DNA of 32,626 bases from Muribaculaceae bacterium (lineage in GTDB: Bacteria; Bacteroidota; Bacteroidia; Bacteroidales; Muribaculaceae). This document shows, piece after piece, positions 11,619 to 26,832 of the stretch (position 1 is the first letter of the stretch; every line of letters begins with the position of its first letter). Below the pieces are notes generated by a model. That model saw nothing but the letters and a program-made list of their open reading frames with translations, had not been told where the DNA came from and did not search any database. The DNA is taken from NCBI GenBank assembly GCA_017547845.1, contig JAFYNZ010000044.1, positions 1 through 32,626 of the forward strand. Reading direction: 5' to 3'. Position numbers and translations under genes: made by a program.

Positions 11619-14081
11619 ATGAAAAAGCTACTCACCATAGTCCTCACCCTCATCGCAACACTCTGCTCCGGCAACATCGCAGCACAGACAGCCGTAGGCG
11701 ACTGGAAGATCCACCCCGCTTTCGACTACTACTTCAAGACAGTCATCGACACCGACGACCGCACCTACGTCCTCGCATTGCAGCAGAAATGCATTCCGAC
11801 AGCAGTCGGCTACGAAAAAGAATTTGGCGGCCTATTCGTCTACGACAAGCAAGCCGACGAGTTCCTATCCTACAATAGCCGCAACTACCTCTCCGAAGAC
11901 GTGGTCAGCTACATCGCCTACAATCAGGCGCGTGGCTACCTGCTCATTGTCTACGAAAACAGCAACATCGACCTCCTCTTCGACGACGACACAGTCTACA
12001 ACATCCCCGGCTACATGTCGGCGGCAATGACCGTATCCAAAGACATCACCCATGTCACATTCGACGCCCCCAACTCACGCGCATACCTCGCCACACAATT
12101 CGGCTACTTCGTCATCAACGACCAAAAAGGCGAAATAGCAGAATCACACATCTACAACACTCCCCTCAACTCCGTCGGACGCATCGGCAATCGCCTCATC
12201 GCATTCACCGACCACAAAGCCCTCTCAAGCCCCATCGACAACCCTCACCTCTCACTCAACGACTTCACCACCATCAACGGCATCACCACCCCATCAATGA
12301 TGCTACCGCTCAGCGACGACAGCTTTGCATTCGTCCACACCGGCCAAGGCAACCTCCAGATGGCACAACTATCCGACGACAGCAACACTGCATCATGCAC
12401 CCTACTCACAGGCGACAAAGTGCAGTCAGCCTACACCCTCGCCGACGGTGCCTACTTCCTCCTCTCAGGCTACAACGCCCACAAACTCGAACGCGACGGT
12501 CGCATCACATCGATCTCCATTCCCGAAGAGCACTATTTGCAGCAATTCTCATCAGCCGACTTCAGCGAATTCTGGTTTGTAGCCCCACGCAAAGGCCTCA
12601 GAAGCCTTCGCCTTGCCGACAACGCATGGACCATCACCCACGACTACTTCATGCCGTCAGCCCCGGCCGTATTCCGAGCATGGACCATCGAATACTCACC
12701 CGACTACGGTATGCTACACGCCAACGAAGGCATGAACCCCGTATTCACCACCAACACCATGTACCTCAACCACCTCATCTCAGGCTACAAAGACGGACGA
12801 TGGACCAACTACGGCGGCACCGTCATCGACAACCCCCTCTGCCAATACATACGCGACGGCTACGGCCCGTCTATCGACCCAATCGACCCCGACATCTTCT
12901 ACATCGGCACCTACAAACACGGCCTCTTCCGCATCAACATCGCCACCGAAGAAGTCGCTCAATACTCCTACCCCAACGACAAAAGCAAAGCCCTCGACGG
13001 CTTCCACCCACTATTTCCTGCAAGCTCATGGGAATACTGCAAAATCTCCAAGCCCGTATTTGATGCCGACGGCACCCTCTGGCTCACCCACGACACTCAG
13101 TCAGTCACCGACTCAGCCAACTCCCTCTACTACTGGACAGCCGACGACCGCAAATCCGACAACACATCAGGATTCAAATCCATGAGCGTCAAAACATTCG
13201 AGTCAAAACACTTCAACGTCATTCTCCCACTCAAAAAGACTCGCAACATCATAATGCTCGCCAACGGATACCACGAAGGCCCGATTTGGGCTCTCGACCA
13301 CAACGGCACACTCGACGACACATCCGACGACCGAGTAGTCAAATTCAACAAAATCCAAGACCAAGACGGCAACGAGATACCTCGCACCTACGTCTACGGA
13401 TTCCACGAAGACATGCAGACAGGACGCGTATGGGTGCACACATTCAACGGCGTGTTCACCATCAACCCCTCACAACTCTTCAATAGCGACTTCCGTGGAC
13501 ACCGCATCAAAGTCGCACGCAACGACGGCACAAACCAAGCCGACTACCTCCTCGATGGAGTCCCCGTCTACGACATGACAGCCGATGGCGGCAACCGTAA
13601 ATGGTTTGCAACAGGAGGCGTAGGAATAGTCCTCACATCAGCCGACGGCACAGAAGTAATACGACAACTCACCACCGACAACTCCTACATCCCCGACAAC
13701 CTCGCATACACCATCGCATGCGACAACGAGTCAAACTCCGTATGGGTAGGCACCAACTTCGGCATCGCACAATACCTCTCCGACTCAACACCGGCAGAAG
13801 ACAACTACGACAACGTCAAAGCATACCCCAACCCTGTCCGCCCAGACTACTACGGATGGGTCACAATCGAAGGCCTTGTCGACAACTCACTGGTCAAAAT
13901 CGCAGACGCATCAGGAGCAATAGTCAAAGAACTCGGACGCTCAAGCGGCGGCATGATATCATGGGATGTTACCAACCTTGAAGGACGACGCGTAAAGACC
14001 GGCGTCTACTACGTACTCGCATCTCAAAGCGAAGAAGGTGGCAAAATGGCCAACGTCACCAAAATCCTCGTCGTCAACTGA
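11619..14081 (+). CDS. porZ: PorZ-like type IX secretion beta-propeller protein
   Basis: An 820-residue protein with a signal peptide (cleavage after ~residue 22, NIAAQ). The body reads as repeated short beta-strand blades of the two-component-regulator propeller type, for example SRAYLATQFGYFVINDQKG, NRKWFATGGVGIV and SNSVWVGTNFGIAQYL. The last ~85 residues (YPNPVRPDYYGWVTIEGL, then GRRVKTGVYYVL) form a T9SS C-terminal domain. In Porphyromonas gingivalis, PorZ (776 residues, two propellers plus CTD) belongs to the surface attachment complex with PorU, PorV and PorQ and delivers anionic lipopolysaccharide to secreted cargo. It follows rdgB by 30 bp. Codon choice is strongly C-ending, unlike the fimbrial and OmpA genes. 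Another propeller protein with a CTD is possible, but the N-terminus and gene context favour PorZ. Confidence 0.85.
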   Translation: MKKLLTIVLTLIATLCSGNIAAQTAVGDWKIHPAFDYYFKTVIDTDDRTYVLALQQKCIPTAVGYEKEFGGLFVYDKQADEFLSYNSRNYLSEDVVSYIAYNQARGYLLIVYENSNIDLLFDDDTVYNIPGYMSAAMTVSKDITHVTFDAPNSRAYLATQFGYFVINDQKGEIAESHIYNTPLNSVGRIGNRLIAFTDHKALSSPIDNPHLSLNDFTTINGITTPSMMLPLSDDSFAFVHTGQGNLQMAQLSDDSNTASCTLLTGDKVQSAYTLADGAYFLLSGYNAHKLERDGRITSISIPEEHYLQQFSSADFSEFWFVAPRKGLRSLRLADNAWTITHDYFMPSAPAVFRAWTIEYSPDYGMLHANEGMNPVFTTNTMYLNHLISGYKDGRWTNYGGTVIDNPLCQYIRDGYGPSIDPIDPDIFYIGTYKHGLFRINIATEEVAQYSYPNDKSKALDGFHPLFPASSWEYCKISKPVFDADGTLWLTHDTQSVTDSANSLYYWTADDRKSDNTSGFKSMSVKTFESKHFNVILPLKKTRNIIMLANGYHEGPIWALDHNGTLDDTSDDRVVKFNKIQDQDGNEIPRTYVYGFHEDMQTGRVWVHTFNGVFTINPSQLFNSDFRGHRIKVARNDGTNQADYLLDGVPVYDMTADGGNRKWFATGGVGIVLTSADGTEVIRQLTTDNSYIPDNLAYTIACDNESNSVWVGTNFGIAQYLSDSTPAEDNYDNVKAYPNPVRPDYYGWVTIEGLVDNSLVKIADASGAIVKELGRSSGGMISWDVTNLEGRRVKTGVYYVLASQSEEGGKMANVTKILVVN

Positions 14082-14419
14082 TCCCCCCGACATTGGTCGA
14101 AAGCATCGGCAGAAACCTTAGCGAAGGCAAAGTCGCTGCCATCGTCGAAGTCGTCGGCGAGCAGAGTCATCGGAGTGAATGCCTTTTGGGCCCTTTTGGC
14201 CTTTAGGCCTTTTCGCTTCCCTTCCACTTGCCCTTTAGTCTTATCAGGCCCTTTCGCCCTGCCGTGCCGTTTATGCGTCGGCCTTTTGGGCGTTTTCGCC
14301 CTTTTAGGTCTTTCACTAAACCCGCTAACGCCCCTCTAAACATTACCCATTACCACCCTTCAGCCCCATAAAAAGCGACAGTGCAGCCCATCTGGACCAC
14401 ACTGCCTTAATCGGTGAGT
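14082..14419. other. Intergenic spacer rich in GGCCTTT-type words
   Basis: Between the convergent PorZ-like and fimbrillin genes, 14178-14320 contains many overlapping GCCTTTTGG / GGCCTTTAGGCC words and ends in TCTAAACATTACCCATTACC. Frames across it are low-complexity and I see no gene. No clear terminator with a T run was found for the PorZ-like gene. Confidence 0.6.
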
Positions 14420-14440
14420 CGTGGGAGTATCACCCCCACG
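14420..14440 (-). promoter_or_regulatory. GTGA-loop hairpin 1, after the last fimbrial gene
   Basis: Minus strand CGTGGGG / TCCCACG (seven pairs, one G-U) around loop GTGATAC. It begins 4 bases after the stop of the 324-residue fimbrillin. There is no T run after it, so it is not a standard intrinsic terminator. It shares loop start and context with the hairpins at 15464, 17254 and 19571. Confidence 0.65.
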
Positions 14441-14444
14441 GCCT

Positions 14445-15419
14445 TTATTCTACAGGGACTACCTTTTCGTTGTCAAACGACTCTTCGATAAACAATGTGA
14501 TTTCCGAGCCGATTGTGAAGAGGTCGCCCTTGAGTGTTGTCAACCAGTTGCGACGGATAGGAATTTCCTGAATGAATGAGCGTTGATAGATCTTGCCGTT
14601 TTCGAATGTCACTGTGAGCACAAAAGGCATCATAGTGTCATCTACCGGGTGAGCAGGGATATAGTCTACAAAGATAGTCTTGTAATCAACGTTTTCCTTC
14701 TCTACCACGCTTGAGCCTGCAGCGATAAATTCGCCTTCTGCATAGTCCACGCGTGACGCTTCCATCACATGGCAGTAGTTGGCGTCAGGCATTCCGAAAT
14801 AGCCTGTCGTTGCGTCAAATGTCTTGGCACGGCCGAAGTCGTATTCCACCTTCACGCTCTCGATGTGAGAGTTAAACTGGCGTTCTGCCTCGTCCCAGTC
14901 GTCAGCCAAGAGGCGAAGCTTACCATATGGACGCTTCAACTCTGCTGAGAGCTGTGGTGCTGCCACGATGTCCTTTGCCACGAAATATTCGTCGACTGTC
15001 TCGTCGTTGAGTGCTTGCTTGAAGCCGATAGTCTCCATCGCTGTAGCATTTACGTCTGAGTCAAACTCTGCGTATGCCACGAAATGATAGTTTTCGCCGA
15101 TCACAAGGCGTGGGTTGAATATCACCGATGTACGGTCGCCTATGCAGGTCACTGTCTGCTTCTCGCCATAGATCTGATAGTCGTCGAGGTAGAGTGCCAA
15201 TGTGAATGTCACATCCTTGCCTACATTGTTGGTCGCACCACCGAGTGCCGAGTTTGTCCACGATGTGTGGTCGGTCGCGCGTGTGCCGATTACGTCCGGA
15301 AGGCTGACAGTGAATGCCACCTCCTCGTTTGAGCCCGGTTGGCCCGGTTTTGGCTCATCGCTTTGACAAGAGGTCAACATCATGCCCAATGCAAGTGCCG
15401 AAAATAGATACTTTTTCAT
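14445..15419 (-). CDS. Fimbrillin-type lipoprotein, short form (last gene of operon)
   Basis: A 324-residue protein with lipoprotein signal MKKYLFSALALGMMLTSC (Cys18) followed by QSDEP, the acidic motif that sends Bacteroidetes lipoproteins to the cell surface. VIGTRA places Arg47 where FimA-type fimbrillins are cut by an Arg-specific protease. The rest is the shared module: LVIGENYHFVAYAEF, KRPYGKLRLLADD, IFVDYIPAHPVDDTM, IPIRRNWLTTLKGDLF, ending shortly after. It has no beta-helix extension. It resembles DUF6562/FimA-like proteins. Likely a polymerising or accessory subunit of the fimbria encoded by this operon; it is the last of seven co-oriented genes. Confidence 0.82.
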   Translation of the reverse strand: MKKYLFSALALGMMLTSCQSDEPKPGQPGSNEEVAFTVSLPDVIGTRATDHTSWTNSALGGATNNVGKDVTFTLALYLDDYQIYGEKQTVTCIGDRTSVIFNPRLVIGENYHFVAYAEFDSDVNATAMETIGFKQALNDETVDEYFVAKDIVAAPQLSAELKRPYGKLRLLADDWDEAERQFNSHIESVKVEYDFGRAKTFDATTGYFGMPDANYCHVMEASRVDYAEGEFIAAGSSVVEKENVDYKTIFVDYIPAHPVDDTMMPFVLTVTFENGKIYQRSFIQEIPIRRNWLTTLKGDLFTIGSEITLFIEESFDNEKVVPVE

Positions 15420-15463
15420 TGTAATTCCGGTTAATAAGTTTTGTTATTAGAGTATTTGCGAAT

Positions 15464-15485
15464 GACGGAGGCATCACCCTCCGTC
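15464..15485 (-). promoter_or_regulatory. GTGA-loop hairpin 2, between fimbrial genes
   Basis: Minus strand GACGGAGG / CCTCCGTC, eight perfect pairs around loop GTGATG. Preceded by ATAGGGT and followed by TTCGCAAATACT, matching the flanks of hairpins 3 and 4. It sits in the gap between the 564- and 324-residue genes. Confidence 0.75.
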
Positions 15486-15505
15486 ACCCTATGATTCGTT
15501 ATTAA

Positions 15506-17200
15506 TTATTCAAGACCATCAGCTGCACTTGGAGCCCAAGCTGCGCCATCCTTAATATTACCTTCAACAACTTTAGCACCTTCTGAAGTATTGATTTGGA
15601 ACCACTTATTCTTATAAGGGTGCTCTGTGCTGTTAGTAATAACGTTGTTTGTGAATGTGAATGTGTGACCTGCTGTCAATTTACCGGCTCTAACAAGACC
15701 ACCTACGCAATCTGTAAACTTATTGCCTGTAACTGTCAAATCACCTGAATATGGATCATACTGTGGCATGATAGCCCATGACTTGATACGAACGAATGAA
15801 CAATCTTCAACCACCAATGACTTATAACCACCATTATTTGACATAGTATAGATAGGATAACCCAAGTCGCTGAATGTAGTGTTGCGAACTACGATAGAAG
15901 CGTTAGGGTTTGTACCATAGATACCACGACCCTTCTTTTCACCTGTACCTGTGAAAGTACAACCATCTACTACGAGGTTATCGATTTGAGCTGTTGCATT
16001 GATTACGATACCTGAATTAAGATTTGAGCCGTCATATACGAAATCTACACCGTCAAGTGTCACATTTTCAATCTTAGTGTTAGCGTCTGTTACAAATGTC
16101 ATTACAGAATTTTCACTTCCCTTGATTGTAACATCTTTCAATTCACCGATTGTAACTGTGCCATAGTTAACATCTTCTTGAAGGAGGATTGTGCTTCCAT
16201 CTTCTGCATTTTCAAGAGCATCTTTCAATTCAGCAGGAGTAGTAGCCAACACATAATCGATATCGATAAAGCCTTCGAATGCTTCTTCGATTGTGAGTGT
16301 CAAGTCTGAATCCATTGTGAAGAGGCGACCCTTAAGTGTTGTCAACCAGTTGCGCTTCACAGGGATATCTTGGTTGAAGTCACGAGTGTATGTCTTGCCG
16401 TTTGCGAAGATCACCTTCACTGTGAATGGCACCATAGATTCTGAGCCATCAAACTTACCAGGGAGGTAGTCAACGAAGATAGTGCGATCTGTGCCTGCTG
16501 TTTCATCAGTGTATTCGCCGTATTCAGCTACAAATGTTTGTGCGCGTTCAGTGTATGCAGGGGCGAATGTACCGGCAATCACGTTAAAGTTAGTAGGGCG
16601 AGTGTGCTTGTAAGTCACTTCTACGCTTTCGATTGCTGCACCGAATTGACGTTCTGCTTCATGCAAGTCTTCTGCGATAAGGCGAAGCTTACCGTAAGGA
16701 CGCTTCAATGTCGCTGACAACTCTGGAGCTGCTGTCAATGTAGTAGAGACGAAATATTCATCGTTCAATTCGTTGTTGATGCCTGACTCTACAGGGATAA
16801 GACCCATGTTTGTAGCAGGGTTTACACCTGCGCCTGTTGCTGTTGCATCGTTGTCAAATTCTGCAAATGCCACCAATTGGTAGTTTTCGCCGATCACCAA
16901 TGTTGGCTCGAATGTAGCTGATGTACCGTTGCCTGCAGACGGAACTGTCTTATTGTCTGCAAACACCAAACGGCCGTCAAGGTAGAGTGCTACGTTGAAC
17001 GTAACATCTGCGTTCATGTTGTTGCTAACGCCACCAAGAGCCGAGTTTGTGCCGCCTGCACGTGTTGACACTGCGTCAGGAAGACTCACTGTGAACGCTA
17101 CCTGTTGCTCGATGCCATTGCCCGGTGCTAATGGCTCATCGCTTTGGCATGAAGTCATCAAGAGACCTGCGCCAAGGGCTGCAAATAAATACTTCTTCAT
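15506..17200 (-). CDS. Fimbrillin-type lipoprotein with C-terminal beta-helix (564 aa)
   Basis: Residues 1-~312 are the common fimbrillin module: lipobox TSC with Cys18, QSDEP export signal, Arg47 in VSTRAGG, NSALGG, KRPYGKLRLIAEDL, IFVDYLPGKFDG, IPVKRNWLTTLKGRLF. From ~320, ATTPAELKDALENAEDGST is the usual cap of a right-handed parallel beta-helix, followed by ~200 residues of short turns rich in N, G, V and T (VTIKGSENSV, IDNLVVDGCTFTG, IVVRNTTFSDLG, LVVEDCSFVRI, LTVTGNKFTDC). Such helices often bind glycans; no catalytic signature is apparent. The AT content appears higher in the helix part than in the N-terminal part. Likely a surface-displayed subunit or tip adhesin of the fimbria. Confidence 0.8.
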   Translation of the reverse strand: MKKYLFAALGAGLLMTSCQSDEPLAPGNGIEQQVAFTVSLPDAVSTRAGGTNSALGGVSNNMNADVTFNVALYLDGRLVFADNKTVPSAGNGTSATFEPTLVIGENYQLVAFAEFDNDATATGAGVNPATNMGLIPVESGINNELNDEYFVSTTLTAAPELSATLKRPYGKLRLIAEDLHEAERQFGAAIESVEVTYKHTRPTNFNVIAGTFAPAYTERAQTFVAEYGEYTDETAGTDRTIFVDYLPGKFDGSESMVPFTVKVIFANGKTYTRDFNQDIPVKRNWLTTLKGRLFTMDSDLTLTIEEAFEGFIDIDYVLATTPAELKDALENAEDGSTILLQEDVNYGTVTIGELKDVTIKGSENSVMTFVTDANTKIENVTLDGVDFVYDGSNLNSGIVINATAQIDNLVVDGCTFTGTGEKKGRGIYGTNPNASIVVRNTTFSDLGYPIYTMSNNGGYKSLVVEDCSFVRIKSWAIMPQYDPYSGDLTVTGNKFTDCVGGLVRAGKLTAGHTFTFTNNVITNSTEHPYKNKWFQINTSEGAKVVEGNIKDGAAWAPSAADGLE

Positions 17201-17253
17201 GATAGATAAAGTTTTTAGTTAATAATATTGTTAATTAATTTTCTTCGCGAGCC

Positions 17254-17273
17254 ATGGGGATTTCACTCCCCAT
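17254..17273 (-). promoter_or_regulatory. GTGA-loop hairpin 3, between fimbrial genes
   Basis: Minus strand ATGGGGA / TCCCCAT, seven perfect pairs around loop GTGAAA, preceded by CTATAGGGCG and followed by GGCTCGCGAAGAAAATT. It lies between the 741- and 564-residue genes. Confidence 0.75.
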
Positions 17274-17299
17274 CGCCCTATAGTTTACTGATTATTGTA

Positions 17300-19525
17300 T
17301 TAGATTTCCTCTACAACTTGATACCACTCAACATTCTCCAAATATTGACCAATGGTTTCGTTTGTCATCTTTTGACCATTAATTGTGATATTTGCCATGA
17401 AAACTTGATAAATGTTATTCACTGATTTGATCAACTTCTTACCTTCAGCAAGTGTGAAATCCAAGTTTTGCAATATCATTACAGAGTTGTTGGTGTTATC
17501 GATAGTAATTACATCATTTTTGAAATTACCTTCGCAATTTTCAATAATAATCGCACCGTATGTTTTGTCAACAACCTTTATTGCTGCGTTTCCACCAAAC
17601 AAATAATTGTTAAACCACAAAGCGTTATTCATAGAGCCACTTTCGAATGCATCACCTTCATATTTAACACCATCAGGGTTTGTGATTTCACTAACGCAAA
17701 TATTACCATTGAAGTCTTCAGGTACTACAACGTGCCAGCCATCTTCTTCGATTGACTTGTAGCCGTCAGCAATCCATTTTGCTTGAGGTTCTGTTTTAAA
17801 TACGCCACCAGAGATAGCAATTTTACCGCCCCAATCCTGCAATCCTGCATTAAACTCACCACCATTGATAGTAACCTTGCCATTTGTTAATGCAGCAATA
17901 CCATAGCCACCGCCTGATACTGAGAATTTACCACCATTTACTGTGATTTCACCCTTATTGACGTATGCCAAAGAGCCGTCCATACCCTTATGAGTGTATG
18001 TACCACTATTAACTACAACTTTTGCATCTGCGTGGTAGATATAGAATACATGGCTTGAAGTATTGAGATATTCTTTGTTGATTGTACAATTATTGAGAGT
18101 TGATGTACCTGCTGCACCACAAGCTACTGCACCTTGATAACCTGTAATATTTACACCAGTCAATGTCATATCACCATAGTTGTTTATAGGATATGATGGC
18201 CAACCGTCGTTTTCTCTGATTGATGCACCAATGACTTCTGTACCTTCAACTACTAAAGTTCCATAATTGCAAATTGCTGAACCGCCATTTGCGCCAATAG
18301 ACGAAATTGTTCCACCTATCACTTTCAAAGTTGCACCCGATCTAATTTCAATTACATGACCATCAGTTTTTGGCATTGTGCCAGTAATAGTCTTGCCGTT
18401 GAGGTCAAGAACAAACGTGCGAGCAGTTGCTTCCTCAGAGCGTACTGCAGGAGCAGGGTTGGCTGATGGAGCAGCACCGAAAACGAGTGTTTCTGTCACT
18501 GCTATATCATTATTCAAAACGATTTCTGTAGTCTCGCCCGGAGTGGCATTATTGATAGCTTCTTGGAGTTGAGAAGCATTAGAAACTGATACGAAGTTGA
18601 TAGTTTCTTCGTTTGCGAACATTTCGTCAACTGTGAGGGTGAGGGCTGCTTCTGTTGTGAAGAAGTCACCGCGAAGTGTTGTCAAGTAGTTGCGCTTCAC
18701 AGGGATGTCTTGTGCGAATGTGCGAGTGTAAGTTTCACCATTAGTGTAAGTTGTCACAATAGTGAAAGGATACATAGTTTCACCTGTTTTGCTTGCAGGA
18801 AGGTAGTCTGTGAATACTGTCAACTCGTTAGTAGCTTCTGCATATGTAGCCTTATTAGCTTCAAATTCCTTGCTTGTAGCTTGACCACCAAACACTTCTG
18901 CCATTGCATTGAAGTGTGTTTCCATCACGACATTATCGCCGTAAGTCACCTTCACTGACGCAACATCTGTACCGAGAGCTTGGAGCTTGTCGTAGTCAGT
19001 CGCTACAAGGCGAAGTTTACCAAATGGACGACGGAGTGTTGCCGACATCTCAGCGCCACCCATAACTTCAGTATCGAAGCAATAGTATGCGTCTTCGCTT
19101 TCGTCGCTGATACCCTTGAGAATAGCGATGCTTGCAAGAGCGTCATTGCCGTCAAATGCATCATTGATAGCAGATTCCGCTACAGCGTCGCCAAATGTTG
19201 CGTATGCCACCACCTTATAGGTGTAACCTTGCACTACGGTTGGGTGGAATGTAGCAGTATTGACATCACTCTGACACGTTTCGCTATACATCACCTTGTT
19301 TGCATCATTGAGAAGCACAACTGTGTAGTTAAGCTGGCCTGCGCCGTTAGAGAAACCACCATTCGCTGAGTTTACTTCGCCGGCACGTGTGCCCATAGCG
19401 TCTGGAACGCTGATTGTGAACGATGCTTGAACCTCTTCGCCCATACCCGGTGCGAATGGCTCATCACTTTGGCAAGAGGTCAACACAAGACCCATTGCGA
19501 GAGCCGGGAATAAATACTTTCTCAT
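17300..19525 (-). CDS. Fimbrillin-type lipoprotein with C-terminal beta-helix (741 aa)
   Basis: The N-terminal ~310 residues are the shared module: MRKYLFPALAMGLVLTSC (Cys18), QSDEPFAPG, Arg47 in MGTRAGE, NSANGG, RRPFGKLRLVATDYDKL, VFTDYLPASKTGETM, IPVKRNYLTTLRGDFF. After ~320, SVSNASQLQEAINNATPGE caps a beta-helix of ~280 residues with rungs such as ATLKVIGGTISSI, GTLVVEGTEVIG, GDMTLTGVNITGY, GEITVNGGKFSV, KVTINGGEFN. WIADGYKSIEEDGWHVVVPE is a short conserved segment that also appears in the 951-residue neighbour. The last ~120 residues are a further small beta-rich region. No enzyme signature seen. Probably a displayed adhesive or scaffold subunit. Confidence 0.8.
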   Translation of the reverse strand: MRKYLFPALAMGLVLTSCQSDEPFAPGMGEEVQASFTISVPDAMGTRAGEVNSANGGFSNGAGQLNYTVVLLNDANKVMYSETCQSDVNTATFHPTVVQGYTYKVVAYATFGDAVAESAINDAFDGNDALASIAILKGISDESEDAYYCFDTEVMGGAEMSATLRRPFGKLRLVATDYDKLQALGTDVASVKVTYGDNVVMETHFNAMAEVFGGQATSKEFEANKATYAEATNELTVFTDYLPASKTGETMYPFTIVTTYTNGETYTRTFAQDIPVKRNYLTTLRGDFFTTEAALTLTVDEMFANEETINFVSVSNASQLQEAINNATPGETTEIVLNNDIAVTETLVFGAAPSANPAPAVRSEEATARTFVLDLNGKTITGTMPKTDGHVIEIRSGATLKVIGGTISSIGANGGSAICNYGTLVVEGTEVIGASIRENDGWPSYPINNYGDMTLTGVNITGYQGAVACGAAGTSTLNNCTINKEYLNTSSHVFYIYHADAKVVVNSGTYTHKGMDGSLAYVNKGEITVNGGKFSVSGGGYGIAALTNGKVTINGGEFNAGLQDWGGKIAISGGVFKTEPQAKWIADGYKSIEEDGWHVVVPEDFNGNICVSEITNPDGVKYEGDAFESGSMNNALWFNNYLFGGNAAIKVVDKTYGAIIIENCEGNFKNDVITIDNTNNSVMILQNLDFTLAEGKKLIKSVNNIYQVFMANITINGQKMTNETIGQYLENVEWYQVVEEI

Positions 19526-19570
19526 AATTTAACCGTGTTATTTGTTATTATTAATTTTTCTTCGCGAGCA

Positions 19571-19590
19571 ATGGAGATTTCACCCTCCAC
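19571..19590 (-). promoter_or_regulatory. GTGA-loop hairpin 4, between fimbrial genes
   Basis: Minus strand GTGGAGG / TCTCCAT around loop GTGAAA; two of the seven pairs are G-U and so form only in the minus-strand RNA. Preceded by ACATAGGGCA and followed by TGCTCGCGAAGAAAAATT. It lies between the 951- and 741-residue genes. Confidence 0.7.
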
Positions 19591-19610
19591 TGCCCTATGT
19601 AGTCAATAAA

Positions 19611-22466
19611 TTATTTCACACATATTTTACCATTCTCAACACTGAAGAATTCTGCATCTGCACCACCGTTAAGAACAGTCATAGCATCTTCTGTGGAAAC
19701 TTCTGTATTTCCTGATACGCTCTTCAATACATTGCCATCATAGTAGTAGCATGAAGTATTGTTGTTTGAACCTTGATATACTATGCCATTAGACGATGTA
19801 ATAGTTCCGGCATTTAAGCAATAGTTTGCTTTATCTCCTGTGCCATATTGTGCTTTAGGAGCAATTGCACCGGCACCATCTGCTCCATTTACTACACCTT
19901 CGTTGTAACAATAGCTTGCATTAATTGAGCCATACAAACTATAAGCGATACCGGCTGCGTAGCTTGCAACTGCTGTGATATTTCCATAGTTTGCGCAATA
20001 TTTTAATGTTGATGCAGAACCTGGTGATTGACCGAGAATACCGGCTGCAGATGCATTGGGATTATCGTGAGTTGATGTTACATTACCATAATTATAGCAG
20101 TATTCGTATGTTGAAGCAGCTTTTTGAACACCTGCAATACCGGCAGCTGCTTCAAAATAATTTGATTTAATATCACCTGTATTAACTGCGTTTTTGATAG
20201 ATCCTGCAAAACCGTGAGCAATACCGGAAGCACCTACTTCGCCTGTAATGTCACCTGTATTAATAACATCTTCAATGTTTGCGCCAACTGTAACCCAAGA
20301 AGCAATACCACCGGCTCTATTTGCACTTACTGTAGCATTGTTTTCGCAGTTCTTAATTGTAACATTTGCCGCGTTATGAACTATACCACCTGCATAAGAA
20401 GCAGCTGTGATTACACCTGAGACTTTCACATTCTCAATAGTCAAACCATCTCCGGCAACGCAAACAACACCTGCAGCGTGTTTGTCTGAACGAATATTCA
20501 CGTTTTCAAGGGTAAGATTTTTAATTTGTGCGTTTTCAGCAGTGTAAGCAATAAGAGCTGCATATTCAGTATTAGCAATAGTTAAGTTTGATATTTTCTT
20601 GCCATTACCATTCAATGTGCCTGCAAAAGGGTTTTCAGATGTACCAATTTGACTCCATTCAACACCTGATAAATTGATGTCATCAGTGATTGTAATTTCT
20701 TCTGTCGAGCCTGTTATTGCCATAACAGATAGAGCATTACAAAGTTGATTAGCAGTAGAGACGCTTGTAGTTAGAACATAATACAATCCATCCTTTTCTA
20801 CTGCTTCGTAGCCATCTGCTATATTGCCGCTCTTAGTAACAGTGTTATCGTTGAAAGTACCTCCGTATACATCAACAGGAGCTCCGTATCCCATATAGTT
20901 TTGGAAAATACCACTTTGACCACCTTGTACACCATAATATCTGAAGTTACCGTCAAATACTTTAATTGTGGCCCCTGCAGGGCAAATTACACTTGCACCA
21001 ACACCACCTGCTGCATTATAATTAAGAGCAAAATTACCATTGTTGATTGTTAACTTTGATGTGTTGCCATAAGCATAAATAACGTGAGCAGTTAATACGC
21101 GACTACCGAGAGCATCAGTTACCGATATATTACCGCCATTAATAGTTACATCAGCACCATTGTTCATGTATAATGCACCACGATCGGAAGTGATTGTAGT
21201 TCCTTCTTCTACTACCAATTTGCCTGAAGTGTAAACAGCATAATTAGGATAGCTTCCTTCAGCAATTGGAGCACCTTCAATAGTGATGTCATCCAAAACA
21301 AGTTCACCGGCATTATTGATAGCGGCGTCACCATTAGGAGTTGTATTCTTGATAGTACCACCCATCAACTTAGCAGAAACACCTTCAGCAACTTCGATAG
21401 CTGCACCATTACCCTTTGCGTTTGCAGCTGTGATAGTCTTGCCATTGAGGTTGAGTGTCATGTTATTTGTAATACTCAAAGGCTTTGAGAGCACAATATC
21501 ACCTTCCAATGTATATTCGCCACCCATTGCTGCAGCAATAGCCAATTGTTCTTCTGCATTGCCTTCGCCCGGAATGAAGTTGTCGAAGTTATCTTCTACG
21601 TTAACTGTGATTTCAGCACCTGCAGTGAAGAAGTTACCGCTAAGAGTAGTCAACGCATTACGACGTACAGGAATGTCGTTGAATGTGCGAGAATATGTTT
21701 CTGTGCTGCCATCATATTTCACTAATACAGTGAAAGTCACAGGATATTCACCTTCTTTTGGCGCCGGAAGATACTCAGCAAAAACAGTATGTGCGCCTGT
21801 TGCATCTGCAGCTTCATAATAACCAAATGGCTTAGTTGTTCCTTCAACATTTTCAGTCGCAATAGTGAAAGCTTCTGTTGTAGCGTCAAATGTACCTTGC
21901 TGAGGATTTGCGTAAGTAATTGTTACAGACTCTACTTTAGTCTTTGCAGGATCATAGTCTTCTGCGACAAGGCGAAGCTTCCCAAATGGACGAGTCAAAG
22001 TCAAAGGTTGAAGGTCACCATTTGCAAAATTGTGTTTCAATGTCTTGAAATAAGCATCCTTTGATTCGTCGTTAAAGCTATTGGTAATCGCTATTGGGTT
22101 CACTCCATTCCAAGCATCCTTGAGAGAAGCATACGCTGTAATCTTATATTCGCGACCAAGTACAACTGTAGGTTTAAACGTAGCAGTTGTTCCACTCACT
22201 GTTGCCTGATCGTGATTTAAAATCTGCGTGTCATTGCTTGCTTGCAACACCAATGTGTACTTGATTTGGTCAGCACCTTGATTTGTTGCACCACCCTTGT
22301 CAGATTGGTTTGCTCCGGCTGCTGCACGAGTACCGAGGTCGCCGGGAACGTTGAGGGTGAAAGTCACCTGTTTTTCGCCACCTTCACCGGGTGCGAATGG
22401 CTCGTCGCTTTGGCATGAGGTCATGACGAGACCTAATGCAAGAGCCGGGATTAAATACTTCTTCAT
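19611..22466 (-). CDS. Fimbrillin-type lipoprotein with two beta-helix regions and GLUG-like repeats (951 aa)
   Basis: The N-terminal ~315 residues are the shared module: MKKYLIPALALGLVMTSC (Cys18), QSDEPFAPG, Arg47 in LGTRAAA, TRPFGKLRLVAEDYD, VFAEYLPAPKEGE, IPVRRNALTTLSGNFF. A first beta-helix (~325-590) has rungs such as MTLNLNGKTITAA, GELVLDDITIEG, ADVTINGGNISV, and ends with IADGYEAVEKDGLYYVL. A second region (~640-930) starts FAGTLNGNGKKISNLTIAN and consists of ~25-30 residue repeats with AGGI/AAGIAG cores (YAGGIVHNAANVTIKNC, RAGGIASWV, AAAGIAGVQ, SAAGILGQS, YAAGIAYSL), matching the GLUG-type repeat of surface adhesins. It is the largest candidate adhesin of the operon, encoded second among the five subunits. 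Confidence 0.82.
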   Translation of the reverse strand: MKKYLIPALALGLVMTSCQSDEPFAPGEGGEKQVTFTLNVPGDLGTRAAAGANQSDKGGATNQGADQIKYTLVLQASNDTQILNHDQATVSGTTATFKPTVVLGREYKITAYASLKDAWNGVNPIAITNSFNDESKDAYFKTLKHNFANGDLQPLTLTRPFGKLRLVAEDYDPAKTKVESVTITYANPQQGTFDATTEAFTIATENVEGTTKPFGYYEAADATGAHTVFAEYLPAPKEGEYPVTFTVLVKYDGSTETYSRTFNDIPVRRNALTTLSGNFFTAGAEITVNVEDNFDNFIPGEGNAEEQLAIAAAMGGEYTLEGDIVLSKPLSITNNMTLNLNGKTITAANAKGNGAAIEVAEGVSAKLMGGTIKNTTPNGDAAINNAGELVLDDITIEGAPIAEGSYPNYAVYTSGKLVVEEGTTITSDRGALYMNNGADVTINGGNISVTDALGSRVLTAHVIYAYGNTSKLTINNGNFALNYNAAGGVGASVICPAGATIKVFDGNFRYYGVQGGQSGIFQNYMGYGAPVDVYGGTFNDNTVTKSGNIADGYEAVEKDGLYYVLTTSVSTANQLCNALSVMAITGSTEEITITDDINLSGVEWSQIGTSENPFAGTLNGNGKKISNLTIANTEYAALIAYTAENAQIKNLTLENVNIRSDKHAAGVVCVAGDGLTIENVKVSGVITAASYAGGIVHNAANVTIKNCENNATVSANRAGGIASWVTVGANIEDVINTGDITGEVGASGIAHGFAGSIKNAVNTGDIKSNYFEAAAGIAGVQKAASTYEYCYNYGNVTSTHDNPNASAAGILGQSPGSASTLKYCANYGNITAVASYAAGIAYSLYGSINASYCYNEGVVNGADGAGAIAPKAQYGTGDKANYCLNAGTITSSNGIVYQGSNNNTSCYYYDGNVLKSVSGNTEVSTEDAMTVLNGGADAEFFSVENGKICVK

Positions 22467-22558
22467 AGTTTTAACCGTGTTTAATTAGTTAATAAGTTTA
22501 TTTTTTTGTTTTTTAGTTGTATGCTATTGAGTTTTATGGTTGTCGTCAGTCACGAGCG

Positions 22559-23467
22559 TCAGTCGCACGTCACATCACACTTCATCGGCGAAGGCGACGA
22601 GAAGAATGCACCACTGAGTGTGGTCAAGGCGTTGCGGCGGAGGGGTATATCGCTAAACGTTCGTGAGAACTGAGAGTCGTCGTTGAGAGTCACAGTGACC
22701 GTGAATGCCTGCAGATAGGTGTCGGCATTGACGGGGAAGTAGTCGGCGACGATGGTCTTGGCAGTAGCAGCGTCGGTGACGCTATACTGCTCGGCTGTGA
22801 GTGTCGGAGAGACCGTAGCGTCGAGGGAGAATTGCTGCGTCAAGGCATCGAAGCGATTGAAGAGCGTGTTAGTGCCGTAATCGATGCTGACCGAGCTGAT
22901 AGTCGCTGCAGCCGGGTAGTCGGTAGCGACGATACGCAGCTTAGCGTATGGACGCTTGAGCATAAGTGCGTGCTGAAGGTTGTCGGCTGTGAAGCGTGCA
23001 GTCTTGGTAGCGACATAGAAGTCTTCCGACTCGTCGTTGAATACGCCGGCGATAGGCATGGCCTTGAGATAGTCGGCTTTCTGAGCATCAGAGAGGGTGA
23101 GTCGGTCGCCGAAGTGAGCGAGGGCTACCATGGTGTAGGTCTTGCCGAGGGTGACCATTGGTGAGAATCGTTCGCCGTCGCCGTCGGTGTCGCTTATCTG
23201 GCAGAAGTCGGATAGGATCAGAGTGTTGTTGTCGGCCACTTCGTAGAGGGCAAGAATATAGTTGAGCTTGTTGGCGCCGAGGTTGTGAGCGCCGCCGAGC
23301 GCAGAGTTGAAGGCGTCGGAGCTGCGAGTCGGGATAGCGTCGGCGACATCGACAGAGAAAGAGGCTTCCACAGTCGTAGCGTCAGGCGCAGCGGGCTCGT
23401 CGTGGCTACAAGAAGCGAGCATCAACGTGCCACACAAGAGTGCGTATATGGAGTGTTTGCTAAGCAT
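22559..23467 (-). CDS. Fimbrillin-type lipoprotein, first subunit gene (302 aa)
   Basis: A 302-residue member of the same family but the most diverged of the five. MLSKHSIYALLCGTLMLASC gives lipobox Cys20, then SHDEP; Arg48 lies in IPTRSSD, and NSALGG follows. The core motifs LGKTYTMVALAHF, KRPYAKLRIVATDYPA, IVADYFPVNADTY and IPLRRNALTTLSGAFF are present and the protein ends soon after, without a beta-helix. It follows the FimB-like anchor gene by 34 bp, the usual place of the major or first accessory fimbrillin. A 92 bp gap to the next gene contains no GTGA hairpin but does have a T-rich minus-strand complement of A tracts. Confidence 0.8.
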   Translation of the reverse strand: MLSKHSIYALLCGTLMLASCSHDEPAAPDATTVEASFSVDVADAIPTRSSDAFNSALGGAHNLGANKLNYILALYEVADNNTLILSDFCQISDTDGDGERFSPMVTLGKTYTMVALAHFGDRLTLSDAQKADYLKAMPIAGVFNDESEDFYVATKTARFTADNLQHALMLKRPYAKLRIVATDYPAAATISSVSIDYGTNTLFNRFDALTQQFSLDATVSPTLTAEQYSVTDAATAKTIVADYFPVNADTYLQAFTVTVTLNDDSQFSRTFSDIPLRRNALTTLSGAFFSSPSPMKCDVTCD

Positions 23468-23501
23468 GAGTTTAAATCGTTGTTATATAGTGGAAATCCT
23501 C

Positions 23502-24635
23502 TTATTCGTTATTAGGGTTGGAACGTTTGAACCTGATGACGATCTCTTCTTCAAACTTGTCGTTGATGTCCAGTCCGCCGGAGTTGCCGGAGTTTGCAAG
23601 GAAGCGACCGAGCACGATAGTGAGTTTGTCGGGATAGATCGGGATATCGATGTTCTCGTTTTTGGATACCTGCTTACCGTCAGGGTTGGTGACCGTGAGG
23701 TTGAGAATCAAGTGGGACTCTTTACCGTTGACAAACGAGTAGTCGTCGCCGAGGCTGACCATCTCTGCCTGGTCGAAGATGTAGCGTTGCGGAACAAACT
23801 TGTAGCCGATGTTTGACGCCGAGAGGTTGGGGCGAGCTTCAGGGATGGAGTATCCGACGTTGAGGAACGTAGGATAGAAGCAGTCGACCTCGTTTTGCTC
23901 CACTGGGACGTTGGAGAGTTCGAGGTAGTCCTTATAGTCGGTGGCAAGCACGACGTAGCGGCCTTGCGGACGGACGAGCGTGGTCTCGGCATAGCGAGGC
24001 TCACCAAGGTATTTGACATCTTCGATGCGGAACTCGTAGGTGCGAGCGAAGCAGTCGCGAAGGTCGTTGTCATCACACTCTTCACGCAATGGGAGGTCAG
24101 ACTTGATGGCAGCCATATTTTTTGTGTCGTAGTAGTAGTCTTCTTCGCGGCCGAGAGGCACATAGTCAGCCCACGCGAGTAGCGTGTAGGTGCCGCCGGG
24201 GAGCTCTACGTGGCAAGTGTGCGACGGAAGCTCGATGGCAGCGTCGATGAGCTGCACGTTGCGTTCGACGAGCTGGCCGCGTCCTGTGCGCACCTCTTCG
24301 TTGGAGCCGTGGTAGATTTCCCACACGAGGCGGAGATTCCACTTGTCGCTTGCAATCTTGTTTTCGCCCAAGTAGTAGCGTTCAAACTGCGGAGCGTCGA
24401 AGGTACGAGTCTGGAGCGAGCGCCATTCGTCGATGCCGAAGATGCCCGGGTTGGCGTTGTCGATCGTATAGTCGACCACGGTATAGATTTCCGGAGCGAG
24501 GTTGCGCACGTTCATCGTCAGCGTCACGTAGGCGCGACCTTCGTCGGGGTATTCGTGGATGGTTTCGACACAGCAACTTGCCGCACCGACCGATAGCACG
24601 ATGGCTGCGATCAGGAGATGGAGATAGCGTCTCAT
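23502..24635 (-). CDS. FimB/Mfa2-like fimbrial anchor lipoprotein
   Basis: A 377-residue protein with signal MRRYLHLLIAAIVLSVGAASC (Cys21, followed by a second Cys). YVTLTMNVRNLAPEIY opens a beta-rich domain typical of FimB/Mfa2 proteins; CHVELPGGTYTLLAWADYV and TLVRPQGRYVVLATDYKDY correspond to the two beta-sandwich halves, the latter echoing the RPxGxxRLxATDY motif of the fimbrillins. In P. gingivalis, Mfa2/FimB anchor the fimbria to the outer membrane and control its length. Unlike the fimbrillins it lacks the TR|A/S processing site near residue 47, as expected for a non-polymerised base. Its start codon overlaps the upstream gene's stop by 4 bp, implying translational coupling. Confidence 0.8.
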   Translation of the reverse strand: MRRYLHLLIAAIVLSVGAASCCVETIHEYPDEGRAYVTLTMNVRNLAPEIYTVVDYTIDNANPGIFGIDEWRSLQTRTFDAPQFERYYLGENKIASDKWNLRLVWEIYHGSNEEVRTGRGQLVERNVQLIDAAIELPSHTCHVELPGGTYTLLAWADYVPLGREEDYYYDTKNMAAIKSDLPLREECDDNDLRDCFARTYEFRIEDVKYLGEPRYAETTLVRPQGRYVVLATDYKDYLELSNVPVEQNEVDCFYPTFLNVGYSIPEARPNLSASNIGYKFVPQRYIFDQAEMVSLGDDYSFVNGKESHLILNLTVTNPDGKQVSKNENIDIPIYPDKLTIVLGRFLANSGNSGGLDINDKFEEEIVIRFKRSNPNNE

Positions 24636-25957
24636 AGTTTCACCTCCTTCACTTTAGGCGTACGTGGCCACCACCATTTGTAGGTCAGGGTGATGCCGGC
24701 GCGAGTAGGTCCCCACCACCAGCCTTCGCCGGAGTCGAATTTCTGACCGTTCTCGCGGTTGTAGTACACGTCGTATTTGTATTTGACCACGCCGAGGCCG
24801 AGGTTGAACTCGAGACCCCAATTCTTGTTTGCGCCGAAATTCAGGGCATAGCCGTAGCCCAGACCGCAGCCCCACGCCGGAGAGTCCGGGTCCTGGTAAC
24901 GGCCATGGTCGTTGATGGCGATATTGAAGAAGCCCACAGTGCCGTGGAGACCGATGAAGTGTCCGCTGCCGGCCTTTGTAGGCCAGAAACGCACTTCAGG
25001 CTGCGTCGCCAAGATGCGACACTTGCGAGTCGGAGTTATATTATAAGGTGAATAGTACACCGGCACATCGAGCGACCATTTCTTGCCCAATGCGGCCTCA
25101 AAACCGAGGTTGGCGATCGATGCCGCACCTATCAGAAGATTGGCCTTCAATGCGAAGAAGCCTTTCTTCTGAGGTTGAGCCACAACGACAGATTCTGCCA
25201 CAGTCTCCTCGACTGCCTCGACCACTACGGGTGCAATCTCTGTCTCCTCGACCACTACGGGTGCAATCTCTGTCTCTTCGACCACTACCGGAGCAGGCTC
25301 GACAATCTCCTCCACAGGCTCAGCTTCGACCACTTCGACAGCAGACTCACCCACCGGCTGCTCTGTGGTGTAGGTCATAAAAACGACTGTCGCATTACGC
25401 ATCTTGTCGAAATATACATTCATGAGTTTTCGCCACACGGCGCCTTCATCGATCTGCTGAAGCTCCGGAATACGGCTATCGATAAGGTGTTCGTCAAGAT
25501 AGTCAACGAGTGTGTGATCACCATCAATGATGGCCAATACAGCCTCTTTATGGTTGATATCTGAAGCCACTACTTGCTCACGAAGGAAGTCCCATGAGAT
25601 GTAGCTATCATCGTAGGAGATGATGCTGTCGGGCAACTGAATACGATCGCGCACAAATTTCTCAAGCACGCCGAGACGCTCTCTGGCAAGACCATGATTA
25701 AACTGATAGCTGCCTTCAGGCGACGCAGCACCACAGAAATAGACGTGGGTCACCTTAGTCGCAGTGTCGGCAGACAACTTTTGCAAGTATTCATGGATTG
25801 AGAGCAAGCGTTTGGCATTGTTGGAAAAAGCCAAATCGATCGTAGTACTATTGACACGGAAATCGACTGACATTTCCGTACGATTCTGCTGTGAACTTGC
25901 TGTCGCAATGCCCACTATGAACAGAATTAGTGCGAATATACATCTTTTGATACTCAT
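24632..25957 (-). CDS. DUF3868/DUF3575-type outer-membrane protein of fimbrial operon
   Basis: A 441-residue protein with signal peptide (to ~residue 22). Residues ~25-140 resemble an OmpA-like domain (VDFRVNSTTIDLAFSNNAKR, then HVYFCGAASPEGSYQFNHGL), which may bind peptidoglycan. A Pro/Glu/Val linker (~185-250) contains PVVVEETEIA twice. Residues ~260-441 form a DUF3575-like beta-barrel: FALKANLLIGAASIANLGFE, FIGLHGTVGFFNIAI, GLGYGYALNFGANKNWGLEF and a closing aromatic strand ITLTYKWWW. DUF3868/DUF3575 genes regularly open FimB-fimbrillin operons in Bacteroidales; their exact role in assembly is not settled. It is the first large gene here and overlaps the anchor gene by 4 bp (ATGA). Confidence 0.8.
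   Translation of the reverse strand: MSIKRCIFALILFIVGIATASSQQNRTEMSVDFRVNSTTIDLAFSNNAKRLLSIHEYLQKLSADTATKVTHVYFCGAASPEGSYQFNHGLARERLGVLEKFVRDRIQLPDSIISYDDSYISWDFLREQVVASDINHKEAVLAIIDGDHTLVDYLDEHLIDSRIPELQQIDEGAVWRKLMNVYFDKMRNATVVFMTYTTEQPVGESAVEVVEAEPVEEIVEPAPVVVEETEIAPVVVEETEIAPVVVEAVEETVAESVVVAQPQKKGFFALKANLLIGAASIANLGFEAALGKKWSLDVPVYYSPYNITPTRKCRILATQPEVRFWPTKAGSGHFIGLHGTVGFFNIAINDHGRYQDPDSPAWGCGLGYGYALNFGANKNWGLEFNLGLGVVKYKYDVYYNRENGQKFDSGEGWWWGPTRAGITLTYKWWWPRTPKVKEVKL
25217..25291 (-). repeat. 30 bp in-frame tandem repeat in the DUF3575 protein linker
   Basis: Two identical 30 bp copies (25217-25246 and 25247-25276) and a 15 bp partial third encode the Pro-Val-Val-Val-Glu-Glu-Thr-Glu-Ile-Ala linker repeat. 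Copy-number change would lengthen or shorten the periplasmic linker in steps of ten residues without a frameshift. Confidence 0.9.
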
Positions 25958-26043
25958 CGTCTCCGGCTCAGTTTAGTCGTTATACATACTTTTTCTTTGT
26001 TTCTCTCATTACAATCATTCCCGGTGGAAGGTTCACCTTTCAT
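25954..26043 (-). CDS. Possible 29-codon leader peptide of the fimbrial operon
   Basis: An ATG at 26043 opens a frame reading MKGEPSTGNDCNERNKEK and onward, rich in charged residues, whose TGA stop overlaps the ATG of the DUF3575 gene by 4 bp (ATGA), the same arrangement as at 24632-24635. No family is recognised, and a frame this short can occur by chance. If translated, it would couple translation of the operon to the leader. Confidence 0.25.
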   Translation of the reverse strand: MKGEPSTGNDCNERNKEKVCITTKLSRRR

Positions 26044-26143
26044 CTGATTCGTCAATTTAATCATTTTTGCATATTATACACCAATATTAAATTTATCTAT
26101 AGTAGCCGTGGCTACGCTACCCCCCCATTTTCGACGCAACAGC

Positions 26144-26218
26144 CTGATAATCAAAGGGTTAGCTTTCGCCACTACAGACAAAGGGGGATTTCTCCACCTA
26201 AAGAGAAATGATTATCAG
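26144..26218 (-). ncRNA. Structured 5' leader RNA of the fimbrial operon
   Basis: Read on the minus strand from the predicted transcript start: CTGATAATCA (26218-26209) pairs perfectly with TGATTATCAG (26153-26144), closing a ~75-base domain. Inside, TTTCTC/GAGAAA forms a hairpin with loop TTTAGGTG, and TGGC-GAAA-GCTA forms a short stem with a GNRA tetraloop. A further GTAGC/GCTAC hairpin lies at 26102-26115. I do not recognise a known riboswitch class. Confidence 0.5.
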
Positions 26219-26221
26219 TGA

Positions 26222-26249
26222 CAAAGTTAAATATTTTTTTTGAATCAAA
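26222..26249 (-). promoter_or_regulatory. Promoter of the fimbrial operon
   Basis: Minus strand TAACTTTG (26229-26222) is a perfect -7 box; TTTG (26249-26246) lies 16 bp upstream, about 3 bp closer than usual, so the promoter may be weak or activator-dependent. The predicted leader is about 260 bases. I saw no TAnnTTTG box in any gap between the downstream subunit genes, which supports one long transcript. Confidence 0.6.
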
Positions 26250-26418
26250 CACCATTTTACTGAAAAAAGTTTTAACATTAGTTGCAATTTAACATTGTTA
26301 ATTAACAGCCCTCTCGAGCTGACTACAATATTTATAATATCCGGTTATGCATCGACTGCAACTGCGACCGCACCTTTCTCCTTGACGAATTATCCACCAT
26401 AACGACCAAACTCATATC

Positions 26419-26481
26419 CATCGCCCAGTCTCTCCCGTCGCCCACCTCCTATCCCTTCTACTCATCGCCCAGTCTCTCCCG
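26419..26481. repeat. 19 bp direct repeat in the 26250-26700 spacer
   Basis: CATCGCCCAGTCTCTCCCG occurs at 26419-26437 and 26463-26481, 44 bp apart. The rest of the spacer (26250-26700) is AT-rich on the left, with no gene-sized frame; a GACATA/TATGTC inverted repeat lies near 26596-26612. Confidence 0.85.
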
Positions 26482-26698
26482 ACCAACTAACGACAAAATT
26501 TGACACATATGTCATCATGCACGCAGAGAATGAGCATAAGCCGCTCTATAGGTGACGATGTTTCGAGAAGAGTCTAAACTAATCAGTAAAAAAATGACAT
26601 ATCGATTATGTCTGAGACTCAGGCACAGCTCCGACTAAGGATAACATCGTAAGGAGCGACAATGCCGACAAAAAAAGAGTATACCAACGAGAGAGTAT

Positions 26699-26736
26699 AT
26701 AAAAGAAACAGTGCCAAAATTTACATTTTGGCACTG
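26699..26736 (-). terminator. Terminator of the OmpA-family gene
   Basis: CAGTGCCAAAAT (26709-26720) and ATTTTGGCACTG (26725-26736) form a perfect 12 bp stem with a four-base loop. On the minus strand it is followed by TTTCTTTTAT, about 100 bases after the OmpA-family stop codon. Confidence 0.85.
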
Positions 26737-26832
26737 ATCCACCCACATGATTTTTTCGCTAATTCATCACACAATGTATAACTAAAATAAATAAGTCGAG
26801 CGAAAAAATCTACTAATTAAGACATATGTATG

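Follow-up and report, generated by a model that had tools for sequence, protein, structure and literature searches.

Gene cluster and shared module

The window analysed here, a stretch of 32,626 nucleotides (nt) from a Muribaculaceae bacterium (contig JAFYNZ010000044.1 of assembly GCA_017547845.1, a genome that is 89.8% complete), carries on its minus strand, from position 26249 to position 14445, a predicted operon of seven co-directional genes in which five proteins share one N-terminal module and three of them continue into long C-terminal regions. The first gene encodes a DUF3575 protein of 441 amino acids (aa) (24632-25957), assigned by Pfam, and overlaps by 4 nt the gene of a 377-aa anchor-like DUF6562 lipoprotein (23502-24635), which matches PF20200 at 171 bits and Mfa2 (PF08842) only at an E-value of 0.22. 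These are followed by a 302-aa single-module fimbrillin without an aromatic hinge or tail (22559-23467; module alignment and Pfam), by three fusion proteins, and by a 324-aa single-module fimbrillin that ends in Phe and a nine-residue tail (14445-15419; module alignment), with spacers of 34-99 nt. The 951-aa fusion (19611-22466) consists of an N-module (21579-22466) and a 655-aa C-terminus (19614-21578), the 741-aa fusion (17300-19525) of an N-module (18605-19525) and a C-terminal extension of 434 aa, and the 564-aa fusion (15506-17200) of an N-module (16271-17200) and a predicted beta-helix C-terminus of 254 aa (15509-16270). An earlier sequence-only reading of this DNA had placed the same seven genes, with which our gene calls agree, and had estimated the three C-terminal regions at about 240, 420 and 630 residues, which the lengths measured from the module end bear out. 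Its view of the two leading genes is likewise supported, by Pfam for the DUF3575 protein and, for a protein that is anchor-like, by the DUF6562 score and a conserved gene order.

Homologs were collected as the best matches of homology searches, so that the survey loci are a non-random sample; at most five candidates per genome were scored in the family survey, and its counts are lower bounds. The module profile matched 57 of 397 genomes of the family, which represent 18 of 30 genera and among which the present genome is counted. At the level of the order it matched 10 of 247 genomes, from six families, with three of these ten from the present family; PF20200 matched 8 of 41 genomes. Among the matches, metagenome-assembled genomes (MAGs) are labelled Alistipes, Rikenellaceae, Coprobacter, Barnesiella, Porphyromonadaceae and Muribaculaceae. 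Proteins truncated at a contig end, nine proteins longer than 420 aa with partial modules and the duplicate locus L094 were left out, and SIG118 and G382 were counted as one genome. The 114 full-module proteins then comprise 21 with an extension of less than 60 aa, two of which are anchors by position, and 93 fusions from 54 genomes with an extension of 201-1219 aa, and none lies between. In 72 loci with any of the genes, the DUF3575 gene is followed directly by the anchor gene in 32, and there are 41 instances of an anchor gene next to a pilin gene (L107 counted twice). Fusions of this kind are widespread.

An alignment of the five N-modules of the window spans about 310 residues, and identity to the first of them is 32-52%. 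They have in common motifs close to those listed in the earlier reading, namely a lipobox Cys, [SH]DEP, TR|[AS], RP[YF][GA]KLR[LI] and LTTLxG. All five pilins and the anchor-like lipoprotein exceed the Pfam cut-off of DUF6562/PF20200; matches to the named FimA/Mfa sequence families were weak and below cut-off (fim_Mfa1_fam and FimD_tip_adhes). Every one of the 39 rows has Cys18 and Arg47 in both module alignments (module rows common to both), which leave out two of the 36 fetched stretches (L088:14696 and L092:4989). A wider pattern test covered 110 modules, including 17 of the 19 short proteins that are not anchors by position (L034 and L100 were omitted, the start of L100 being called behind the signal); three of these 17 scored nearer the anchor profile. 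A lipobox-like Cys, sought with a loose pattern, is present in 110 of 110 modules, and the conserved Arg of the predicted cleavage site follows about 30 residues past the Cys, within a strict [TSD]R[AGSTDN] site in 102 modules and, by eye, at the same place in the other eight. At the other end of the module, an aromatic residue, mostly Phe or Tyr, stands 22 residues past an LTT/RTN-type motif in 69 of the 93 fusions, and an aromatic occurs near the module end in 91 of 93, compared with 74% of background windows.

AlphaFold2 models of the 564-aa and 741-aa proteins were built from the 39 aligned sequences. In the 564-aa model (mean predicted local distance difference test (pLDDT) score 76, predicted template modelling (pTM) score 0.50), most of the module lies at 84-94, its loops at 45-76 and the beta-helix region at 68-91. 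The 741-aa model (mean pLDDT 79, pTM 0.53) contains, past the module, a putative beta-helix at about 309-576, identified by strand pattern only and mostly at 84-94 with a dip at 351-370, then a linker below 50 at 579-632 and a further C-terminal domain. In both models a confident strand at 35-39, which may correspond to the removable first strand of a prepilin, precedes the Arg. A Foldseek search of the Protein Data Bank (PDB) with the 564-aa model returned 18 chains from 11 entries at E <= 1e-3, all from Bacteroidales, and 17 of the 18 are titled fimbrial, adhesion or adhesin, the remaining one being a putative polysaccharide-binding DUF1812 protein. The matches include the tip protein Mfa3 (5nf4, E 5.8e-8), a FimA prepilin and the anchor Mfa2, and they indicate that the shared module has the two-domain beta-sandwich fold of type V pilins, as the sequence-only reading had predicted for its fimbrillin module. 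Lower in the search, with interspersed low-probability matches, came GH28 polygalacturonase, adenovirus LH3, alginate lyases and RbmB (probability 0.97-1.00), all of them beta-helix proteins, and these matches indicate a beta-helix for the head of the 564-aa protein. A beta-helix is thus predicted for the 564-aa protein from a model and fold search, for the 741-aa protein from the strand pattern of its model, and for the 951-aa protein only from its sequence.

The GLUG-like repeats described for this largest protein were not recovered: Pfam gave no GLUG match at E <= 1, and instead placed Peptidase_M26_N at residues 611-684 with a score equal to the cut-off. The protein also matches one unnamed PHROGs family, and the 564- and 741-aa proteins match none. 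Among the 93 pooled C-termini, Pfam identified GLUG in 12, Beta_helix in seven, Peptidase_M26_N and Pectate_lyase_5 in six each, and CBM26, BACON, NosD and fn3 in five each; these sets may overlap, so that at most 51 of the 93 match any of the listed families and the others match none. Two proteins of Alistipes MAGs (L085, 10001-13588; L098, 10001-13861) combine a DUF6562 module with fn3, starch-binding CBM26 and BACON, with fn3 and BACON below their cut-offs. These domains joined to a DUF6562 module give a hint that some heads may bind glycans.

Probable exchange of heads, and the hairpin behind them

Comparison with the related MAG SIG118 revealed similar heads on dissimilar modules. Over 261 residues, the first part of the 951-aa protein's head (residues about 300-570) matches the head of a 714-aa SIG118 protein at 89% identity, whereas the modules of the two are 51% identical; the four-fold sites are the same at 110 of 123 positions in the head and at 28 of 66 in module residues 50-310. 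Similarly, the head of the 741-aa protein shares 70% identity over 283 residues with a 915-aa protein of SIG118, against 41% between the modules, and over its last 90 residues it matches the 714-aa protein at 69%. Other members have SIG118 orthologs without such a break (302-aa protein, 77%; 324-aa protein, 89%; 564-aa protein, 84% in the module and 75% in the head), with identity that is uneven along them. The same relation is found over larger distances: L120 and L139, from different genera, have heads 76% identical over 424 residues and modules 38% identical, and an Alistipes MAG protein (L095) matches the SIG118 915-aa protein over 308 residues at 73%, with modules at 31%. A single head common to the 741-aa and Alistipes proteins was considered and dropped, because the two match different halves of the 915-aa protein.

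The opposite combination, of similar modules with unlike heads, is found within genomes. Among 15 same-genome pairs of fusions with modules at least 70% identical, the C-termini match at 50% or more over 100 residues in one pair and at 31-33% in four, and do not match in ten, while among 31 different-genome pairs selected in the same manner 19 match at that level and five do not match at all (Fisher p 4e-4, the pairs not being independent). Such a module pair is present in 13 of the 29 genomes with two or more fusions. G534 has nine fusions of 753-1315 aa (one truncated at a contig end), distributed over six contigs; all 36 pairs among them have modules 52-83% identical, and the heads show no match in 26 and 50% identity in one. 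After non-collinear matches had been dropped, the nucleotide match between paired genes stopped no more than 30 nt from the module end in 15 of 15 pairs, and its start varied from 300 nt before to 138 nt past the ATG. The pair of L139 is 100% identical over 914 nt from the ATG to the module end, and that of L137 is 97.4% identical over the same span. The joint between constant and exchanged parts sits just past the last strand of the module and the aromatic hinge, and its placement within 30 nt makes head swapping testable. In our reading of these comparisons, modules would be homogenized and heads replaced within many genomes, and the interchangeability of C-termini proposed from the single sequence is borne out by the comparative data across genomes.

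Each of the three fusion genes is followed on the same strand by a hairpin with a 12-bp stem and a GTGA-type loop, located 13 nt past the stop of the 951-aa gene (19554-19597), 19 nt past that of the 741-aa gene (17237-17280) and 14 nt past that of the 564-aa gene (15451-15491). Exactly these three are found in the host genome, both by pattern and by model (E <= 8e-14, against 3.3 and 4.6 for the two matches that follow). In 75 sources, 11 matches were obtained at E <= 0.01, of which three are in the window, seven in SIG118 and one in L130, and all 11 lie 9-66 nt past the stop of a fusion gene. Pairing is maintained in 99.2% of stem cells, with changes on both sides in six of the 12 pairs; the covariation score is 0.547, whereas shuffles give 0.307 and sliding gives no more than 0.167, in an alignment fitted to the model, which favours the score. 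Further pair types were not above shuffles, 131 of 500 of which reach the count. An intrinsic terminator was rejected for these hairpins because the stem is followed not by a T-run but by GCGAAGAAAA- or GCAAATA-type sequence, and without the T-run the hairpin is read as an mRNA element, which probably tunes mRNA stability or processing or the stoichiometry of the subunits. That it is instead a recombination or mobility site appears rather doubtful to us. Its position at the 3' edge of the exchanged part in 11 of 11 matches, also at L074 and L075, in neither of which a second module gene was found, would suit such a site, but a G-U pair kept in 11 of 11 stems read on the coding strand fits RNA, and the hairpin occurs only in this operon within the host genome; no recombinase was looked for. 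At gathering score, Rfam identified two tRNAs only in the window and no hairpin family, and a structured RNA element without an Rfam match is thus described here.

Structured spacers (z < -2.5) were also counted more widely: 21 of 40 spacers between fusion genes are structured, compared with 18 of 77 controls (p 0.004, single-base shuffles), and five of the 21 belong to the window or SIG118. Past the 324-aa gene, a suspected fourth hairpin of diverged sequence was rejected (z -0.55; 52 of 200 shuffles fold as well). In L119 (7429-11739), the spacers behind the first two fusion genes share an identical stretch of 155 nt and contain a different, GC-rich hairpin.

A proposed pilus with alternative tips

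Published work on type V pili of Bacteroidales describes anchor, stalk and tip pilins, the pilins being lipoproteins cut by a surface clostripain, and C-terminal ligand domains are already known on tip pilins (PMC12632263). The shaft pilin Mfa1, of 563 residues, has its hinge at Trp554 and requires its last six residues for polymerization, while Mfa3 has 105 residues past its Trp hinge and the last nine of this tip protein are dispensable, according to PMC5789003; Mfa5 is a large tip protein with vWF/IgG-like parts, according to PMC7835359. On the precedents of Mfa3 and Mfa5, a C-terminal head on a pilin is expected for a tip subunit, and both proteins run counter to the assertion in the earlier reading that known FimA/Mfa1 subunits are single modules. 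The present system resembles FimA/Mfa1-type pili in its predicted pilin fold, lipoprotein precursor, Arg site, anchor-like gene, putative hinge with C-terminal tail and head-bearing pilins. It differs in belonging to DUF6562/PF20200, in having several head-bearing pilins per operon and hairpins between genes, and in its beta-helix, GLUG or carbohydrate-binding heads that are exchanged at the module boundary. Mfa3 in particular, from P. gingivalis, shares the pilin-fold match and a putative aromatic hinge followed by a further C-terminal stretch, but in place of its 105 residues there are here 201-1219, with a predicted beta-helix where modelled.

From sequence comparison and structure models, we consider it fairly probable that this locus of a Bacteroidales gut bacterium encodes a type V pilus and, with it, a choice of tip adhesins that exchange their heads by recombination. 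The operon would supply three alternative head-bearing pilins alongside a single anchor and one or two plain pilins. Each precursor would be an outer-membrane lipoprotein that is cut after the conserved Arg, perhaps by the product of the only Peptidase_C11 (clostripain-family) match in the host genome, and the cleavage would open a groove into which another subunit would insert its C-terminal strand. The shaft may be built by the 324-aa protein, a candidate picked by its tail length, Phe and nine residues being compared with Trp554 of 563 in Mfa1. The fusions, in which the tail runs on into a beta-helix, would be the tip subunits, with glycans or other surface ligands as their targets. By homologous recombination between the repeated N-modules, a head could then be replaced as one unit with its 3' spacer, and the outcome would be a changing adhesin repertoire on a constant assembly platform. 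At slightly less than even chances, the module, which recurs within the operon and, in some genomes, at dispersed chromosomal sites, may serve as both assembly interface and recombination handle: unequal crossing-over and gene conversion would preserve a uniform fibre interface while heads, each with its 3' hairpin-spacer, are gained, lost and traded between genera, so that each strain has its own set of beta-helix tips. The proposal gives DUF6562, a family of unknown role, a possible role as a type V pilin, and offers a way in which little-studied gut Bacteroidales might alter the binding of their fibres while assembly stays intact.

Several observations weigh against this proposal. The structural similarity found by Foldseek is remote (TM-score by target 0.39-0.59, reaching 0.5 or more in four of 18; root-mean-square deviation 5.8-11.1), the pTM of the two models is 0.50 and 0.53, a sequence search of solved structures found no relative of the module and only one unrelated chain at E 0.73, Mfa_like_1 (PF13149) has no match anywhere in the host genome, and the hinge is mostly Phe or Tyr rather than Trp. 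As for exchange, 16 of the 29 multi-fusion genomes, that of the window included, have no module pair at 70%, and the three fusion modules of the window are only 39-46% identical to one another, so that any exchange there would be old; five different-genome pairs with modules at 70% or more likewise have no C-terminal similarity. Furthermore, the residues past the hinge in the fusions look, by eye, like the tails of single-module pilins of the same operons, no anchor gene was found in the 6.6-18 kb pieces fetched around the nine fusions of G534, and many loci come from MAGs.

Each of these last three points has an explanation of its own attached to it. If the tail-like residues mean that the donor strand is kept, the fusions could be shaft subunits, in line or displayed at the side, in which the beta-helix hangs sideways and the fibre is studded with different heads; several fusions encoded in one operon would also fit. 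We regard this arrangement as unlikely, since the known C-terminal ligand domains sit on tip pilins (PMC12632263), and the final residues are dispensable in the tip protein Mfa3 and essential in the shaft protein Mfa1 (PMC5789003). The G534 fusions, dispersed and with neither anchor nor DUF3575 gene in the fetched pieces, suggest instead stand-alone surface lipoproteins, adhesins or glycan binders that reuse the pilin fold as a spacer and form no pilus. The CBM26, BACON and fn3 domains would accord with this, being found in five C-termini each (with possible overlap) and all together in the two proteins scanned whole. It is nevertheless distinctly improbable in our estimation, because a permanently tethered lipoprotein has no obvious need of the conserved cleavage-site Arg and because fusions are linked to anchor-like and DUF3575 genes. 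Finally, MAG and draft contigs could have produced near-identical N-modules with different C-termini as assembly chimeras of metagenome bins. This is very hard to reconcile with the pairs of L137, L139 and L120, in each of which both genes lie on one contig (of 3.34, 1.27 and 1.59 Mb, respectively), or with the recurrence of pairs at 70% or more in 13 of 29 genomes; an assembly artefact is judged unlikely given paired genes on long single contigs.

The pilus with alternative, exchangeable tips that we favour has partial parallels in other diversified fibres. The fibre proteins of Bdellovibrio, a different bacterium, have a constant part with variable tips. Chimeric fibre proteins of this bacterium are reported to serve in recognition (PMC10769870). 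Tip pilins of type V pili can be diversified by diversity-generating retroelements, according to work cited in PMC12632263; the proposed tip-pilin diversification of the present case is shared with that system, but whole C-terminal segments differ and are swapped, and no retroelement was looked for. The literature search, which did not cover many subscription papers and bioRxiv preprints, returned nothing on DUF6562, nothing on GLUG with Bacteroidales and fimbriae, two papers on DUF3575, and only a review on fimbrillin with beta-helix; none of the listed titles or opening abstract lines concerned pilins of this kind that bear a beta-helix or swap heads. What stands out is the presence of more than one type of head in an operon, the use of a beta-helix and the exchange of heads; as far as the literature searched shows, the several head-bearing pilins per operon, the exchange at a fixed joint, DUF6562 and the hairpin are new.

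Transcription signals and neighbouring genes

A promoter-like TTTG-16-TAACTTTG site lies on the minus strand at 26222-26249, and inside the operon this strand has no other match to the pattern, which is of the Bacteroidetes promoter type; the first base of the site is the coordinate 26249 at which the sequence-only reading had the operon begin. The assertion of a single readable promoter holds for this pattern, but several sigma-70-type matches also lie inside the operon on the same strand (e.g., 17571-17544, 11/12), with 33 found against 24.4 in shuffles. Terminator-like hairpins from a hairpin scan are located on the minus strand between the upstream OmpA-family gene and the operon (26709-26736) and past the last gene (14377-14406), and terminator-like sites are not in excess over the region (10 against 11.8 in shuffles). 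In the 5' leader, 26144-26218 holds a perfect 10-nt inverted repeat with arms 55 nt apart. Invertible DNA or a shufflon was rejected, as 14000-27000 is without inverted repeats of at least 20 nt; shorter repeats and recombinases were not searched there. The five module copies of the operon are the only ones in the host genome by protein search with the 324-aa protein. Inside the DUF3575 gene, ahead of the DUF3575 domain, are three 30-nt tandem repeats (25216-25305), two identical and the third at 67%.

Upstream of the operon lie the OmpA-family gene (26833-27957) and, upstream of that, a gene for a 1192-aa protein (28413-31991, minus strand) with only weak and coiled-coil-type Pfam matches. 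On the other side, a plus-strand gene (11619-14081) gives a full-length match to PorZ of the type IX secretion system (NF052228, 401.5 bits against a cut-off of 260), and a minus-strand gene (3336-7031) encodes an internalin-like leucine-rich repeat protein with a sorting domain of the same system. On the basis of these two genes, the organism probably possesses a type IX secretion system.

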